Below are positions 25,977 through 31,216 of a stretch of 64,000 nucleotides of DNA, one piece after another (the stretch's first letter is position 1; each line of letters starts with the position of its first letter). Source of the DNA: Oscillospiraceae bacterium (GTDB lineage Bacteria; Bacillota; Clostridia; Oscillospirales; Acutalibacteraceae); NCBI GenBank assembly GCA_015066385.1, contig SVOJ01000008.1, forward strand, positions 1 to 64,000, read 5' to 3'. The notes beneath the pieces are model-generated. The model saw only the letters and a program-made list of their open reading frames with translations. It did no database searches and was not told where the DNA came from. The translations under genes were made by a program, and so were the position numbers.

Positions 25977-27497
25977 ATGGGTAAACTGCCCGATCCGAAC
26001 AAACTCAATACCTATACCAAAAAAGAAAGCATCATGTACCTCATCGGTCTTGCAGGTCAGAACATGATCTACAATATCATCGGTACGGGATTGTATTTCT
26101 ATTTCCAGAGCGTTATTTTTCTGCCTGCCATCGCCATCAGCACATTTATGACGATCGCTCGTGTATGGGATGCTTTCAATGACCCGATGATGGGTTCTAT
26201 TGTTGACCGCACCCGTACCAAGTGGGGCAAATGCCGTCCGTATCTGATTTTCTGTCCGGCGGCAATCTGCATCATTACCATTCTTACGTTCATCAATGGC
26301 CGCTATGTTGAAGGCGGCGATGCCGCACGCAATGCCTTTATTATCGGCTGGGCTGCTATTTCCTACATTCTGTGGGGTATGTGCTATACCGTCGGTGACA
26401 TTCCGTTGTGGGGCATTACGGCACTGATGACGGAAGATGCAAAAGACCGTTCTAAAATTCTGGCGCTCGCAAGAGTTGCAGCCGGCATCGGCGGCGGTCT
26501 TGTGCTTGCGGCAATTGTTCCCATTTCGCAGGCTGTCGGCAGTATGCTGACTCCCGAAAATGCAACCCCGGAACAACTTGCCGACGGTCAGCAAAAGGGC
26601 TTTATTCTGGTTGCCGTTGTCATGTCGATCATCGGCTCGGGTCTGTTCCAGTTGGCAGGTCTGTTCACAAAAGAACGTGTTGCGTCTTCCGAAAGACACT
26701 ATACACTCAAAGAAAATTTCCAACTGATGTGGAGCAACAAGCCGTTCCGTCAGCAGCTCATTTCCGGCGTGCTCAGAAGCCCCATTCAGCTTCTTATGAA
26801 TGTTGCCATGACACTGCTTGCTTACTACTTCGGCGACTACCACGGCGATTACGTTCTTTATATGGTCATTCTCGGCGGCGGTATGATGGTCGGTCAGTTT
26901 GCGATCATGCTCTTCATTCCCGGCCTTGCGCAGAAGTATGAGAAGAAGACACTTATGATCTTGTCCACCGTCATTTCCGCAATCGGTTTTGCACTGGTGT
27001 TTGTGGTTTATCTGATCGCTCCCACCGACCTCGACAAGCCCGTCTGGCTGGTTGTCAATGCCGTTCTCTTTGCCGTTGCAGGTGCAGGACAGGGGGCTTT
27101 GAACGTGTTGCAGTCTGTTATGATCGCCGATACGGTCGACTACGAAGAATACCTGCACGGTGTTCGTCCCGACGGTGTTTTCTTCTCGGGGCAGAGCTTC
27201 ATCACAAAACTTTCCACCGGTATTGCTTCCATTATTTCCGGTGTTGTTTATGCCGTCGTCGGTTTCTCGGGCAGTGCGGTCGAAGAACTCAACAATGCGC
27301 TTTACAACGGTGCGTCGTTCAAATATGACTATCCCGAATACGCAGCCGCCATGTTCTTCCTGTGCTCCATTCCGCCCGCAATCGGTCTGTTCCTGTCGGT
27401 CATCCCCATTCGCAATTATGCCTTGACCAACAAAGAGCATTCCCGCATTCTTGCCGAATTGCAATCCCGCCGCCACGGCAGCGAAAACGCAGAATAA
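25977..27497 (+). CDS. GPH-family sugar:cation symporter
   Basis: 506 residues from the ATG at 25977, preceded by AAAAAGGAGGT; the ORF-track start lies inside the upstream repeat. This MelB-type transporter of the major facilitator superfamily has about 12 transmembrane segments. The loop 2-3 signature is RVWDAFNDPMMGSIVDRTRTKWGKCRPY, where the paired Asp residues bind the coupling cation in MelB. DYEEYLHGVRPDGVFFSGQSFITKLSTG near the C-terminus is typical of the family. Substrate is unknown; with malQ and GH92 beside it, glucosides or mannosides are likely. Confidence 0.93.
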   Translation: MGKLPDPNKLNTYTKKESIMYLIGLAGQNMIYNIIGTGLYFYFQSVIFLPAIAISTFMTIARVWDAFNDPMMGSIVDRTRTKWGKCRPYLIFCPAAICIITILTFINGRYVEGGDAARNAFIIGWAAISYILWGMCYTVGDIPLWGITALMTEDAKDRSKILALARVAAGIGGGLVLAAIVPISQAVGSMLTPENATPEQLADGQQKGFILVAVVMSIIGSGLFQLAGLFTKERVASSERHYTLKENFQLMWSNKPFRQQLISGVLRSPIQLLMNVAMTLLAYYFGDYHGDYVLYMVILGGGMMVGQFAIMLFIPGLAQKYEKKTLMILSTVISAIGFALVFVVYLIAPTDLDKPVWLVVNAVLFAVAGAGQGALNVLQSVMIADTVDYEEYLHGVRPDGVFFSGQSFITKLSTGIASIISGVVYAVVGFSGSAVEELNNALYNGASFKYDYPEYAAAMFFLCSIPPAIGLFLSVIPIRNYALTNKEHSRILAELQSRRHGSENAE

Positions 27498-27516
27498 AAA
27501 ATAAAACCGATTTGCA

Positions 27517-27545
27517 TTGACAAACCGGGTGAAAATGATTATAAT
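27517..27545 (+). promoter_or_regulatory. antisense promoter of small locus 1
   Basis: TTGACA-17-TATAAT is a perfect consensus promoter directed toward the small ORF's 3' end. Confidence 0.85.
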
Positions 27546-27551
27546 ATAACC

Positions 27552-27646
27552 GTAGAGGCTACCGTTTAAAGCGGTTGGTGCCTTATGTTAATGGTATTTT
27601 TGCATTAACAACCGTCACTTGGCAGAGTGGCGGTTGTTACCTTTTT
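27552..27646 (+). ncRNA. predicted antisense RNA of small locus 1 (about 95 nt)
   Basis: It starts near ACCGTAGAGGC and ends at the hairpin AACAACCGTCAC...GTGGCGGTTGTT (27607-27638) followed by TTTTT. It overlaps the opposite-strand small ORF at its last codons and terminator. Its 5' part (CGTAGAGGCTACCGTTTAAA) is an inverted copy of the ORF transcript's 5' end. By layout it is the candidate antitoxin RNA. No known Rfam family was recognised. Confidence 0.65.
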
Positions 27647-27710
27647 GCTTAAACTTGATATGTATAGTAAAAGTGAAATTACCAACATGAAAAGTCAAAG
27701 TGATGGGCAT
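27615..27710 (-). CDS. 31-residue small protein, copy 1
   Basis: The peptide begins MPITLTFHVGNFTFTIHIKF and ends in NNRHSAK. It is too short for the ORF track. The start is preceded by AAAGGAGGTGAGACAA, whose Shine-Dalgarno is folded into CCTCC-GAAA-GGAGG. Strict alternation of Thr/His/Lys with Leu/Phe/Ile/Val suggests one beta-hairpin with a Gly-Asn turn and a basic tail. A consensus promoter lies 66 bp upstream of the start codon. Two paralogues follow at 28884 and 29201. The stop lies within the shared terminator stem. Family unknown to me; a type I toxin is the leading guess. Confidence 0.75.
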   Translation of the reverse strand: MPITLTFHVGNFTFTIHIKFKQKGNNRHSAK

Positions 27711-27775
27711 TTGTCTCACCTCCTTTCGGAGGATTGACACCAACCGCCTTTTAAGCCGCCTCTACGATCGGCATA

Positions 27776-27804
27776 AGTATACCGCTTGTGACGGCTTTTG
27801 TCAA
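27776..27804 (-). promoter_or_regulatory. sense promoter of small locus 1
   Basis: On the minus strand TTGACA-17-TATACT directly abuts the stop codon of the upstream acetyltransferase-like gene. Confidence 0.8.
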
Positions 27805-28686
27805 TTATTCATTTTGTAACATTCTGAAAATTTCTTCTTCATTGTCGCATTTATCATAATCACCAATCAACTTTCCTTGATAGTGATATTTGATACCCTT
27901 TTGTTTATTTTTTAATACACATTCAGCAAGTGAATGAACATCATACTGTTTTGCAAAAGCAGCAAATGCCCTGATACGCATTTTGTCAAGCATAGAACCG
28001 TTGCACGGAAAGTCAACACATTCCCAACAACCGTTCAGATTTTGTTGTCTGCAGCAGTTGTAGTTTTTGCACCATCCGTGCATTTCACAGCCGCCTTCCT
28101 GACAGCCGACACAGGTTGCATCGTGCTCACATACGCAGCAGGCAAGGCCGCAATATGCGATCGGGGAGCGTCTTTTTCTTGCATAATAATAACCACCGGG
28201 ACGGAAATCATTGGTCAGAACAAAACTGAACTTTTTTACCGTGTCGGTGCGCATGGCAAATGCAGGCAGCACCTTGATGCACATGGTCCGCACATCAAAA
28301 TCCGTATAAAAATGATGCACGGCGCAGGTCAACAACTCACTGAAATATGTCGGTGTTTCATACGCAGAACATAAGTCAATCCGCAATACACCAAATTCGC
28401 CACCGAAAATTTCAACCGTACCGATTGCCTTGTCGATACTTTTGTCCACTACGGCAAAACGCACATATCGCTGTTGTTCATATTCCGACAGCCAGAATAA
28501 AATTGCCGCTTCCATTTCTGCAACGCTTTCAAAATAAAAACCGCTTGTGCATGCATCAGCATTCATCCGTGCGACCGACTCTTTGTCTGCATAACATTTC
28601 AAAAGGTCTTCGGCATCGTGCAGAGAAACAAGGCGCAGCATAAAACTTTCTGTTTCATAAGACGGACAATGAATATACGGGTTCAT
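27805..28686 (-). CDS. GNAT-like acetyltransferase fused to a Cys-rich DUF3795-type domain
   Basis: About 293 residues. The ATG at 28686 is chosen because AAGGAG precedes it; the track start nine codons earlier has none. Residues 1-165 resemble a GNAT N-acetyltransferase (SFMLRLVSLHDAEDLLKCYAD, then DKAIGTVEIFGG), although the usual acetyl-CoA loop Q/R-x-x-G-x-A is not clear. Residues 180-260 form a Cys-rich module, IAYCGLACCVCEHDATCVGCQEGGCEMHGWCKNY...GCWECVDFPC, typical of DUF3795 proteins and probably metal-binding. The gene sits between two inverted copies of the small-ORF locus, which suggests an acquired cassette. Confidence 0.75.
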   Translation of the reverse strand: MNPYIHCPSYETESFMLRLVSLHDAEDLLKCYADKESVARMNADACTSGFYFESVAEMEAAILFWLSEYEQQRYVRFAVVDKSIDKAIGTVEIFGGEFGVLRIDLCSAYETPTYFSELLTCAVHHFYTDFDVRTMCIKVLPAFAMRTDTVKKFSFVLTNDFRPGGYYYARKRRSPIAYCGLACCVCEHDATCVGCQEGGCEMHGWCKNYNCCRQQNLNGCWECVDFPCNGSMLDKMRIRAFAAFAKQYDVHSLAECVLKNKQKGIKYHYQGKLIGDYDKCDNEEEIFRMLQNE

Positions 28687-28788
28687 GCAAATCTCCTTAT
28701 TAAAAAAGAACATTTGTTCTATTTTACTTTGAATATACTACATTCTGTTTTACTTGTCAATACAAATTAACAAACTTTTTCCGAAATA

Positions 28789-28817
28789 TTGACAAAATCC
28801 GCTTGTCGGAATATAAT
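28789..28817 (+). promoter_or_regulatory. sense promoter of small locus 2
   Basis: A perfect TTGACA-17-TATAAT consensus. Confidence 0.85.
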
Positions 28818-28883
28818 AATTCCGATCGTAGAGGCGGCTTAAAAGGCGGTTGGTGTCAGATCCTCCGAAAGGAGGTGAGACAT

Positions 28884-28973
28884 ATGCCCATTACTTTAAC
28901 ATTCCATATTTGTAACATAACGATTACAATAAGAATTAAGGTAAAAAGCAACAACCGCCACTCTGCCAAGTGA
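28884..28973 (+). CDS. 29-residue small protein, copy 2
   Basis: The peptide begins MPITLTFHICNITITIRIKV and ends NNRHSAK. Relative to copy 1 most codon changes are synonymous, and the others are mostly conservative (V to I, F to I, H to R) with one in-frame 6-bp deletion. This is the pattern of a protein under selection. The same SD hairpin (TCCTCCGAAAGGAGG) ends 8 bp before the ATG. The transcript would run from about 28824 through the hairpin at 28950-28981. Confidence 0.78.
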   Translation: MPITLTFHICNITITIRIKVKSNNRHSAK

Positions 28974-29035
28974 CGGTTGTTTAACAAAAAATATTTAACA
29001 ATCAGACACTAACCGCTTTAAACGGTAGCCTCTAC
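28943..29035 (-). ncRNA. predicted antisense RNA of small locus 2 (about 93 nt)
   Basis: It is driven by the minus-strand promoter at 29042-29070. It ends at the 32-bp hairpin shared with the ORF transcript, followed by TTTTT on this strand; the other strand has no T run after the hairpin, so termination is stronger for the antisense RNA. Same design as locus 1. Confidence 0.65.
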
Positions 29036-29041
29036 GGTTAC

Positions 29042-29070
29042 ATTATAGCCAATTGCTTCCGATTTGTCAA
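29042..29070 (-). promoter_or_regulatory. antisense promoter of small locus 2
   Basis: On the minus strand TTGACA-17-TATAAT, a perfect consensus pointing at the small ORF. Confidence 0.85.
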
Positions 29071-29107
29071 TGCAGATCGGAAGTTTATTTTTATCTTTTC
29101 CGAAATA

Positions 29108-29136
29108 TTGACAAATATCGATACAAGCGGTATATT
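29108..29136 (+). promoter_or_regulatory. sense promoter of small locus 3
   Basis: TTGACA-17-TATATT, about 65 bp upstream of the GTG start. Confidence 0.8.
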
Positions 29137-29200
29137 TGACCTGATCGTAGAGGCGGCTTAGGGCGGTTGGTGTCAATTCCTCCGAAAGGAGGTGAGACAT

Positions 29201-29296
29201 GTGCCTGTAACTTTGACTTTTCATGTTGGTAATTTTACTTTTACTATACATATCAAGTTTAAGCAAAAAGGTAACAACCGCCACCCTGGCCGGTGA
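29201..29296 (+). CDS. 31-residue small protein, copy 3
   Basis: A GTG start yields MPVTLTFHVGNFTFTIHIKF with the tail NNRHPGR. The ATG two bases earlier (29199) opens a frame that stops after three codons, so GTG is the start. DNA identity with copy 1 is very high in the coding part. The SD hairpin is the same as in the other copies. The tail differs (SAK to PGR) together with compensating changes in the terminator stem (CCACCCTGGCCGGTG). Confidence 0.73.
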   Translation: MPVTLTFHVGNFTFTIHIKFKQKGNNRHPGR

Positions 29297-29358
29297 CGGT
29301 TGTTCAATAAAAAAATTTAACAACTAAGACACTAACCGCTTTAAACGGTAGCCTCTAC
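29265..29358 (-). ncRNA. predicted antisense RNA of small locus 3 (about 94 nt)
   Basis: It starts near ACCGTAGAGGCTACC and ends after the shared hairpin (29273-29304) with TTTTT. Its promoter flank TTGACAAATCGGAAGCAATT is nearly the same as in locus 2, so loci 2 and 3 look like a tandem duplication. Confidence 0.65.
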
Positions 29359-29364
29359 GGTTAT

Positions 29365-29393
29365 ATTATAGTCAATTGCTTCCGATTTGTCAA
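29365..29393 (-). promoter_or_regulatory. antisense promoter of small locus 3
   Basis: On the minus strand TTGACA-17-TATAAT, a perfect consensus. Confidence 0.85.
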
Positions 29394-29413
29394 TGCAGAT
29401 CGGAAGTTTTTTG

Positions 29414-31216
29414 TTATGTAAACTGTGAATTGTAGAGTGTGCTGTAGAATCCGCCGAGTTGCAGCAGTTCTTCGTGGTTGCCGTGCTCGGTGATTTCACC
29501 GTTCTGCACCACAAGAATGGTGTCGGCATTCTGAATGGTGGAAAGTCTGTGGGCGATCACAAAGCAGGTTCGGCCCTGCATCAGCTCGTTCATGGCATCC
29601 CTGATCTGTATTTCGGTTCTTGAGTCAACATTGGAAGTCGCTTCGTCGAGAATCAGCATGGGGGCATCCGACAAAAAGGCACGGGCAATGGTGATGAGCT
29701 GTTTTTGCCCCTTTGAAATGTTCACCCCGTCATCGGATAAAACCGTGTCATATCCGTCGGGCAGACTCTCTATATAACGGTCGATTCTGGCGGCTTTTGC
29801 GGCGGAACGGACCTCTTCTTCTGTTGCATCTTCTCTGCCGTAGGCAATGTTTTCAAACACCGTGCCGTGGAACAGCCATGTATCCTGCAATACCATGGTA
29901 AAACTCTTACGTAGGTCTGCACGTTTAATTTGCATGGACGGAATGCCGTCAATGCGGATTTCGCCCGATTGCGGATCGTAAAAGCGCATCAAGAGGTTGA
30001 TGATCGTTGTTTTTCCTGCCCCTGTCGGACCTACGATGGCAACGGTTGTGCCGGGTTGTGCCGTTACGGAAATGTGTTTGAGGATTGGTTTTTCGGGCAC
30101 ATAAGCGAAGGACACATCGTCAAGCACCGCTTCACCCCGCACATTTTCAAGAGGTTGTGCATCTTCTGCATCGGTAGGTTCGCTCGGTTCATCGAGAATA
30201 CGGAACACCCGCTCCGCCGCCGAGAATGCCGACTGAAATTCATGCAGAATATTTGAAAATTCGTTGATCGGCCCTGCAAACTTGCGGGAGTATTGCACAA
30301 ACTGTGCCACGCCGCCTAATGTGATGAACATGGCAGACCCCGCCGCCACGGCACCGCTTTGTGAGTTCATATACAAAATACCGCCGAAAATGGCAACCAG
30401 CGCAATGGAAATGTTGTTGATGAGGTTGATGCTCGGGAACAGCAATGCCGCACTGTATTCGGCATTGTAGTAGGCATCCATGGCTTCTTCGTTGCGTTTG
30501 TTGAAGCGGTCGGAAATCACATCCTGCCTGCCGTAGGCTTCGATGCTTCTTGCACCCGACAGCATTTCTTCCGCATAGCCGTTGAGCTCGCCGTATTTTT
30601 TGCTTCGTTTGCTGAACAGCGGCCGCACCTTTTTGGAACGGTAGCGGGTGAACAGCACCGAAACGGGCACGGTGAACACAAAAATGAGGATCATCGGCTT
30701 TGAAATATTCCACATGAAAATCAACGAGCCGATGACGGTGTAAATGCTTGTCATAACCTGCACAAGGTCATGCGAAAGGGTGCTGTTGACGGTGTCTATG
30801 TCGTAGGACAGGTGGCTGATGATGTCCCCCGTGTGATTGGTGTCAAAATAATTGACAGGCAGGGTGTTGAGCTTTTCAAACAACTCTTTTCGCATTTTGT
30901 AAGTGATTTTCTGGCTTAAGTGAATCATAATCACCGCAAGGATGTAGGACAGCCCTGCCGACAGCGCATAGCAGACGATCATTTTGATGACATTCACCCA
31001 CACCGCATCAAAATCGACACCGCTTGCAAGTTCAATCGCATCAATTGCCGCACCCGAATAGCGAGGGCCCAGCAGGGAAAGCTGATTGGAAAGAAGCGTG
31101 AACACAATGGCAGGTATAAATAAGTGCCATTGTTGCAACACGTATTTTCCCAATCGTATGAAAATGCCTTTGTTATCGCGTTTGCGCACGGGTGTCTTTT
31201 CTTTTTTCTCAGTCAA
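29414..31216 (-). CDS. ABC exporter subunit B (TMD-NBD) with a degenerate signature motif
   Basis: About 600 residues. A TTG at 31216 is the likely start: GGGAGGTG lies 6 bp upstream, and it overlaps the partner gene's stop by 8 bp. The ORF-track start lies far inside the partner. Six transmembrane helices (residues 25-310) precede an ATPase domain with Walker A GPTGAGKTT, a signature that reads ISKGQ where LSGGQ is usual, and an intact Walker B LILDEAT followed by the switch His (VIAHRLSTI). It forms a heterodimer with the next gene's product. Substrate (drug, lipid or peptide) unknown. Confidence 0.9.
   Translation of the reverse strand: MTEKKEKTPVRKRDNKGIFIRLGKYVLQQWHLFIPAIVFTLLSNQLSLLGPRYSGAAIDAIELASGVDFDAVWVNVIKMIVCYALSAGLSYILAVIMIHLSQKITYKMRKELFEKLNTLPVNYFDTNHTGDIISHLSYDIDTVNSTLSHDLVQVMTSIYTVIGSLIFMWNISKPMILIFVFTVPVSVLFTRYRSKKVRPLFSKRSKKYGELNGYAEEMLSGARSIEAYGRQDVISDRFNKRNEEAMDAYYNAEYSAALLFPSINLINNISIALVAIFGGILYMNSQSGAVAAGSAMFITLGGVAQFVQYSRKFAGPINEFSNILHEFQSAFSAAERVFRILDEPSEPTDAEDAQPLENVRGEAVLDDVSFAYVPEKPILKHISVTAQPGTTVAIVGPTGAGKTTIINLLMRFYDPQSGEIRIDGIPSMQIKRADLRKSFTMVLQDTWLFHGTVFENIAYGREDATEEEVRSAAKAARIDRYIESLPDGYDTVLSDDGVNISKGQKQLITIARAFLSDAPMLILDEATSNVDSRTEIQIRDAMNELMQGRTCFVIAHRLSTIQNADTILVVQNGEITEHGNHEELLQLGGFYSTLYNSQFT

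Follow-up and report, generated by a model that had tools for sequence, protein, structure and literature searches.

In a 64,000-nucleotide stretch from an Oscillospiraceae bacterium (assembly GCA_015066385.1, contig SVOJ01000008.1, positions 1 to 64,000; here, the window), a compact locus with convergent promoters occurs three times, at 27517-27804 on the minus strand and at 28789-29070 and 29108-29393 on the plus strand. Each copy is probably an antisense-RNA-controlled small-peptide gene acting like a type I toxin-antitoxin module, with an mRNA that would fold in the manner of hok and AapA. Convergent promoters, coding selection on the open reading frame (ORF), a predicted antisense terminator, a sequestered Shine-Dalgarno (SD) sequence, patchy multicopy spread and putative toxin-less cassettes together make a toxin-antitoxin-like family well supported at the level of sequence comparison. 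A first-pass annotation of this DNA had proposed such a new family with an Fst/par-type bidirectional terminator; the comparative evidence supports the former, while the role of the terminator hairpin had to be revised.

The layout described in that annotation was recovered almost in full. All six promoters in the window have a TTGACA -35 box and a 17-bp spacer, and the -10 box is TATAAT in four of them, TATATT in the ORF promoter of copy 3 and TATACT in that of copy 1; the boxes are kept between copies and the spacers diverge. Behind one promoter, every copy carries an ORF of 29 to 31 codons with a strong SD that lies within its own hairpin (CCTCC-GAAA-GGAGG), as well as a hairpin with AACAACCG arms, which is shared by the two convergent genes. 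As had been noted, CGTAGAGGC stands at both predicted 5' ends, the two being inverted copies at the DNA level. Copies 2 and 3 form a 319-bp tandem duplication on the plus strand. The genome total is nine copies, not three, and all nine have kept both promoters, the SD hairpin (with a GAGA loop in one), an ORF of 29 to 31 amino acids and the AACAACCG hairpin. The parts of the window copies are as follows, the panhandle being the proposed pairing between the two ends of the mRNA.

27776-27804, minus strand: copy 1 mRNA promoter (TTGACA at 27804-27799, 17 bp, TATACT at 27781-27776)
27736-27769, minus strand: copy 1 mRNA leader and panhandle 5' arm, predicted by folding
27719-27732, minus strand: copy 1 SD hairpin
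27615-27710, minus strand: copy 1 ORF, MPITLTFHVGNFTFTIHIKFKQKGNNRHSAK; its AlphaFold2 model is a beta hairpin
27607-27638, strand not assigned: copy 1 shared hairpin
27548-27583, minus strand: copy 1 panhandle 3' arm, predicted
27517-27545, plus strand: copy 1 antisense promoter (TTGACA, 17 bp, TATAAT)
27496-27528, minus strand: copy 1 predicted mRNA terminator, CCGGTTTGTCAATGCAAATCGG and TTTTATTTTTT, with the antisense -35 box inside
28789-28817, plus strand: copy 2 mRNA promoter (TTGACA at 28789-28794, 17 bp, TATAAT at 28812-28817)
28824-28857, plus strand: copy 2 mRNA 5' leader and predicted panhandle 5' arm (GATCGTAGAGG...GCGGTTGGTGTC), partner at 29005-29036
28862-28875, plus strand: copy 2 SD hairpin, CCTCC-GAAA-GGAGG
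28884-28973, plus strand: copy 2 ORF, MPITLTFHICNITITIRIKVKSNNRHSAK, predicted toxin, with coding selection at the family level
28950-28981, strand not assigned: copy 2 shared hairpin (AACAACCGCCACTC..GTGACGGTTGTT), overlapping the ORF end; predicted antisense terminator
29005-29036, plus strand: copy 2 predicted panhandle 3' arm, complement of the antisense RNA 5' end
29042-29070, minus strand: copy 2 antisense promoter (TTGACA at 29070-29065, 17 bp, TATAAT at 29047-29042)
28945-29036, minus strand: copy 2 predicted antisense (antitoxin) RNA, start at about 29035, end shortly beyond the shared hairpin (limits from promoter and terminator positions)
29056-29092, plus strand: copy 2 predicted mRNA terminator, CTTCCGATTTGTCAATGCAGATCGGAAG and TTTATTTTT, with the antisense -35 box inside
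29108-29136, plus strand: copy 3 mRNA promoter (TTGACA, 17 bp, TATATT)
29143-29174, plus strand: copy 3 mRNA leader and panhandle 5' arm, predicted
29179-29192, plus strand: copy 3 SD hairpin
29201-29296, plus strand: copy 3 ORF, MPVTLTFHVGNFTFTIHIKFKQKGNNRHPGR, with a GTG start; an out-of-frame ATG at 29199 gives MCL only
29273-29304, strand not assigned: copy 3 shared hairpin
29328-29359, plus strand: copy 3 panhandle 3' arm, predicted
29365-29393, minus strand: copy 3 antisense promoter
29379-29415, plus strand: copy 3 predicted mRNA terminator, with the antisense -35 box inside

Copy 3 combines its GTG start and the overlapping out-of-frame ATG upstream with a weaker -10 box and an altered tail, NNRHPGR, and is perhaps in an early stage of decay.

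The first-pass annotation had one hairpin ending both transcripts, and the U tracts speak against this. Behind the shared hairpin, most loci of the family have a U tract in the antisense direction (GTTGTTGCTTTTT and variants) and mostly none in the mRNA direction, the mean number of U being 4.6 and 2.6 of 8 nt, respectively. The hairpin is thus a predicted terminator of the antisense RNA, and not convincingly a bidirectional one. At the expected mRNA end, all three window copies have a second terminator-like hairpin with the antisense -35 box inside. Counting these copies, a second hairpin with a T tract around TGTCAA, the antisense -35 box, was seen at 38 loci, a few of them weak, and its stems are unrelated in sequence between lineages. 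A simple scan for terminators with a free energy (dG) of -10 or better detected one in that stretch in 36% of the loci compared to 4% of dinucleotide shuffles; outward of the ORF promoter, the same threshold gave 14%. Given the weak U tract in the mRNA direction and the second terminator, the mRNA probably runs across the entire antisense gene, so that it would span the complement of the whole antisense RNA. Completion of the mRNA and initiation of the antitoxin RNA may then take place on, and compete for, the same DNA. A stable stem-loop (GCCCCGAAAGGGGC type) lies within 4 nt of the start in about half of the predicted mRNAs and less often in the antisense RNAs, and it perhaps stabilises the 5' end of the toxin mRNA.

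For the inverted CGTAGAGGC copies, the most plausible reading is that they form the ends of a single mRNA, which would close into a panhandle of about 26 bp; this structure was computed from the sequence on the premise that the mRNA reaches the second terminator. The duplex of the leader with its own 3' end has -48.2 kcal/mol, that with the 3' ends of other loci -31.9 kcal/mol (permutation, 0 of 10,000), and with one locus per cluster the values are -45.6 and -31.0 kcal/mol, the own partner being the best in 32 of 58. When the predicted full-length mRNAs were folded freely, the ends joined in 66 of 66, with a mean of 26 pairs, which fell to 14 when the 3' end was swapped for that of another locus. 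RNAalifold found the panhandle unprompted in the nine paralogues, with two-sided changes at columns 6-226, 9-223, 12-220 and 35-196; a compensatory example affecting both ends is CATAGAGG in locus L007 and CGTAAAGG in locus L009. These pair counts leave out a larger MAFFT alignment with other genera, where the left arm was misplaced by one base. Furthermore, with one locus taken from each of 58 clusters, the leader and the antisense 5' end differed by 141 transitions, of which 113 were G/A or T/C changes that keep G-U in the mRNA and 28 were breaking, the keeping share in cross-locus alignments being 62%. Nothing in an inverted repeat at the DNA level would lead to this direction, so RNA pairing is favoured, and locus-specific pairing, compensatory changes and the G-U bias together support RNA pairing over a mere inverted repeat. 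A contact of the antisense 5' end with the mRNA 5' end was also considered and rejected, as it showed almost no locus preference (own -27.7, cross -26.1).

The two promoters are not equal. Out of 103 loci, most of them found with the hairpin core as the sole bait, the antisense promoter matches at 12 of 12 positions in 68 and at all but one in 25, compared to 0.6% and 0.4% of random 160-nt windows from the same contigs. With at most one mismatch, the antisense promoter is present in 125 of 140 loci and in about 1% of random windows, so its conservation is well above chance level. It also lies at a steady distance from the hairpin, the antisense start following after a median of 83 nt (interquartile range, 79 to 86 nt). 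The -10 box is TATAAT on the antisense side in 75 of 95 loci and on the ORF side in 20 of 95; the antisense promoter thus looks the stronger of the two, which is what an RNA antitoxin would be expected to have. As for the ORF, it is under protein-level selection: with the hairpin-coded tail excluded, the synonymous rate (pS) is 0.55 and the nonsynonymous rate (pN) 0.17, a relation that is inverted in both other frames. The tail itself, NNRHSAK, is probably conserved through its hairpin-forming codons, and a few ORFs terminate ahead of it (loci L082 and L047).

Considering these data, we propose a model for the control of the peptide. First, the ORF promoter would give rise to an mRNA of about 270 nt encoding 25 to 31 amino acids, with its SD held in the local CCUCC-GAAA-GGAGG hairpin and its leader (CGUAGAGGC...GCGGUUGG) paired to its own 3' end. 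The primary transcript would thereby be translationally locked, a pairing backed by covariation, with an effect on translation modelled on hok and AapA. The stronger convergent promoter would produce an antisense RNA, about 90 nt long, stopping at the shared hairpin and complementary along its full length to the 3' part of the mRNA; it would catch unlocked mRNAs, such as those trimmed at the 3' end, and trigger their degradation. In the three window copies, as in roughly one quarter to one third of loci, the antisense -35 box sits inside the predicted mRNA terminator, so that the genes would overlap almost completely. Should the antisense supply fail, the peptide, a predicted cationic amphipathic beta hairpin, would be made and would harm the cell, probably at the membrane.

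The distribution of the family was followed by two routes. A covariance model built on the ORF transcript, scanned against genomes of the same family, order, class and phylum, including the window's own genome, found relatives in 6 of 150, 17 of 295, 2 of 291 and 5 of 398 genomes, respectively, one other genome reaching 7 copies. The hairpin core (ACCGCCACTCNGNNNAGTGACGGT), a bait independent of the upstream ORF and promoters, matched at least 120 stretches of a named genome collection, and the named carriers among the matches listed are Clostridia or Bacillota, mostly Oscillospiraceae, Ruminococcaceae and Lachnospiraceae, including Evtepia gabavorous KLE1738 (L108), Gemmiger formicilis MCC627 (L167) and Pseudoflavonifractor capillosus An827 (L102). 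Merging all sources gives at least 140 distinct loci with SD, ORF and hairpin, all from Bacillota where named; MPITITLHIFGYTVTIRIKGRNRHSAK and MRITLHIGRFTVTIIVKSRNRHSAK are typical peptides. One locus (L068, 1-2400) holds five tandem hairpins at a spacing of about 450 bp with differing peptides, the first copy having no ORF. Such cassettes recur: at L131, L126, L154, L071, the first copy of L068 (near 397), L079 (near 1160) and L100 (minus strand), the antisense promoter and hairpin are intact and the N-terminal part of the ORF is swapped for unrelated sequence. They are candidate solo antitoxin RNAs, as would be expected if a cell can afford to lose the toxin and not the antitoxin. In genomes of family f193, genus g587 (L186-L188, L190-L192, L194-L196), which belong to the same phylum as the window genome and a different class, the layout is the same and 3 to 7 diverged copies are present per genome. 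The cassette also occurs on a few viral contigs (L055-L065) and in one unannotated 4.5-kb phage record, MT839148.1, which may be true phages or prophage edges; a plasmid search gave no match. In the window, the flanking genes encode an MFS_2 sugar transporter, a GNAT-like protein and two ABC transporters, and copies elsewhere have other, unrelated neighbours, so the module is an independent chromosomal cassette.

The peptide shows an alternating pattern, I-T-L-T-F-H-V-GN-F-T-F-T-I-H-I-K, that suggests an amphipathic beta hairpin. Its hydrophobic moment is above that of shuffles at 170 degrees and below it at 100 degrees, the alpha-helical angle, and AlphaFold2 with 64 family members modelled the copy 1 peptide with strands at 2-9 and 12-19 and a predicted local distance difference test score (pLDDT) of about 91 in residues 1-20, the basic tail being less certain. 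A fold search with the 31-residue model gave weak matches only (best E, 3.1), as expected for an isolated hairpin. The mean grand average of hydropathy (GRAVY) is -0.23, and the peptide has no long hydrophobic run and no transmembrane stretch. Membrane-associated type I toxins have an alpha-helical transmembrane segment (PMC8309996), which is absent from the family peptide. A beta-hairpin toxin would thus be new, and the peptide may resemble cationic beta-hairpin antimicrobial peptides in its action.

This composition, cationic and amphipathic rather than hydrophobic as in a typical type I toxin, speaks for a regulated peptide other than a toxin, such as a signal, an antimicrobial or a housekeeping peptide silenced by the antisense RNA, as does the clear coding selection; toxicity is a prediction. 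We nonetheless regard this as unlikely, given that the sequence has no recognisable signal peptide, that the examined flanks hold unrelated chromosomal genes and no export or maturation gene, and that the multicopy, patchy and tandem pattern and the antisense-only remnants fit the behaviour of toxin-antitoxin modules.

Somewhat less probable still is a plan like that of Fst/par, in which both RNAs stop at the shared hairpin, complementary terminator loops start the contact between mRNA and antisense RNA, and the common 5' sequences vie for the hairpin arm (GCGGUUG with CAACCGC). The par locus (RNA I/RNA II) is compact, with convergent promoters, an SD sequestered in a stem-loop, a hairpin between the genes that acts as bidirectional terminator, and direct repeats (PMC7472228). 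Its likeness to the new family in convergence, compactness, the SD stem-loop and the intervening hairpin is real, the hairpin is strong, with a 3' arm ending in UUGUU in the mRNA sense, and in an mRNA cut there the leader still pairs with the hairpin arm. However, the scant U tract in the mRNA direction does not sit well with a shared bidirectional terminator, the part of the first-pass comparison with Fst/par that is least convincing, and neither the locus-specific match of leader and antisense RNA beyond GCGGTT nor the G-U-keeping bias is explained. Moreover, par repeats are direct and yield complementary RNA segments, whereas the 5'-end copies here are inverted. The sequences are also unrelated, as the first-pass annotation had held: the Fst PXXXG(C) motif is absent by inspection, and no Pfam or NCBIfam match was found at E up to 5.

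A regulatory RNA pair that acts on other genes, with a leader peptide lacking a function of its own, is improbable: small RNAs with short ORFs are common, conservation is highest in the hairpin and antisense cassettes occur that have no ORF, yet amino-acid selection on the peptide is clear beyond the hairpin-coded part. More improbable again is a non-autonomous palindromic mobile element akin to miniature inverted-repeat transposable elements, with promoters in its inverted ends by chance and incidental ORF and RNAs, which would account for the inverted ends and the dispersed and tandem copies but was rejected as the main explanation because of the coding selection and the G-U-directional end differences, and to which the kept promoter boxes amid diverged spacers and the flanks of the nine copies, by inspection devoid of a common element end beyond the promoters (the tandem pair excepted), are equally opposed.

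In favour of the toxin-antitoxin reading are thus the layout, the unequal promoter strengths, the predicted double lock on translation, the multicopy, tandem and patchy spread and the antisense-only cassettes. Several points weigh against it. The simple scan detects no second terminator in most homologous loci, where the mRNA 3' end is uncertain, and for an mRNA that stops at this first hairpin, pairing of the leader with the hairpin arm (GGCGGUUG with CAACCGCC) offers an alternative lock. Kinship among the sequences lowers the independence of the covariation counts despite clustering. Finally, the peptide does not resemble known toxins, most type I toxins having a long hydrophobic helix that it lacks, and transcription, start sites and toxicity are predictions from sequence.

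The closest known systems in mechanism are hok and AapA/IsoA, in which a locked full-length mRNA is opened by 3' trimming and the antisense RNA catches the opened form (PMC6733600). AapA/IsoA of Helicobacter has 5'-3' long-distance mRNA pairing, a short antisense RNA and several module-specific copies per genome (PMC6733600). The predicted mRNA shares this long-distance pairing, a hallmark of AapA and hok, by computation, and the family further resembles hok/sok and AapA/IsoA in its small-peptide mRNA with paired ends, its short opposite-strand antisense RNA and its multiple copies. It differs from both in sequence and host, in the local SD hairpin, in the predicted beta hairpin and in an antisense RNA that would cover the 3' part of the mRNA; searches of Rfam, Pfam and NCBIfam gave no match of RNA or peptide to AapA/IsoA or hok.

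The convergent genes TxpA/RatA and BsrG/SR4 of Bacillus subtilis have an antisense RNA over the 3' part of the mRNA, and the TxpA and BsrG toxins have transmembrane helices. The new family resembles them in convergence and in this 3' overlap and differs in its predicted beta-hairpin peptide, for which no sequence relation to theirs was found. The Rfam BsrG model (RF01412) matches copy 3 over the full length, but weakly, at 19.8 bits far below its gathering threshold of 55. The pair yonT/SR6 is likewise convergent with a 3'-overlapping antisense RNA (PMC5848175). Type I modules of Clostridioides difficile (CD2517.1-RCd8 and others), also from a clostridial host, have overlapping convergent toxin and antisense genes, and their toxins of 34 to 59 amino acids contain a transmembrane segment (PMC6563280); the peptides of the new family are shorter (25 to 31 amino acids) and have none.

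A search of Rfam, suggested by the first-pass annotation, found no family at the gathering threshold, with AgrB and BsrG matches under the cut-off. Pfam, NCBIfam, PHROGs, PADLOC and the PDB gave nothing usable, two PHROG matches at E 0.03-0.06 being left unused. The searchable literature contains no description of the family, though most subscription papers and preprints lay outside the search and an earlier description is possible; the family is apparently undescribed. The best explanation of the finding is the known type I toxin-antitoxin principle in a new family, with a revised terminator detail and an explanation of the inverted copies. Whether it amounts to a large, undescribed superfamily of type I modules in gut Clostridia, with amphipathic beta-hairpin toxins and the mRNA terminator within the antitoxin promoter, is in our judgement evenly balanced.

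With more than 100 natural variants and strong covariation, the mRNA panhandle is directly testable. The family would carry type I toxin-antitoxin-like modules through major bacteria of the gut, the Oscillospiraceae, Ruminococcaceae and Lachnospiraceae. A genome can hold as many as nine of these genes, whose small size puts them below the reach of routine annotation. If true, the beta-hairpin toxin of the family would break the helix rule for membrane type I toxins.

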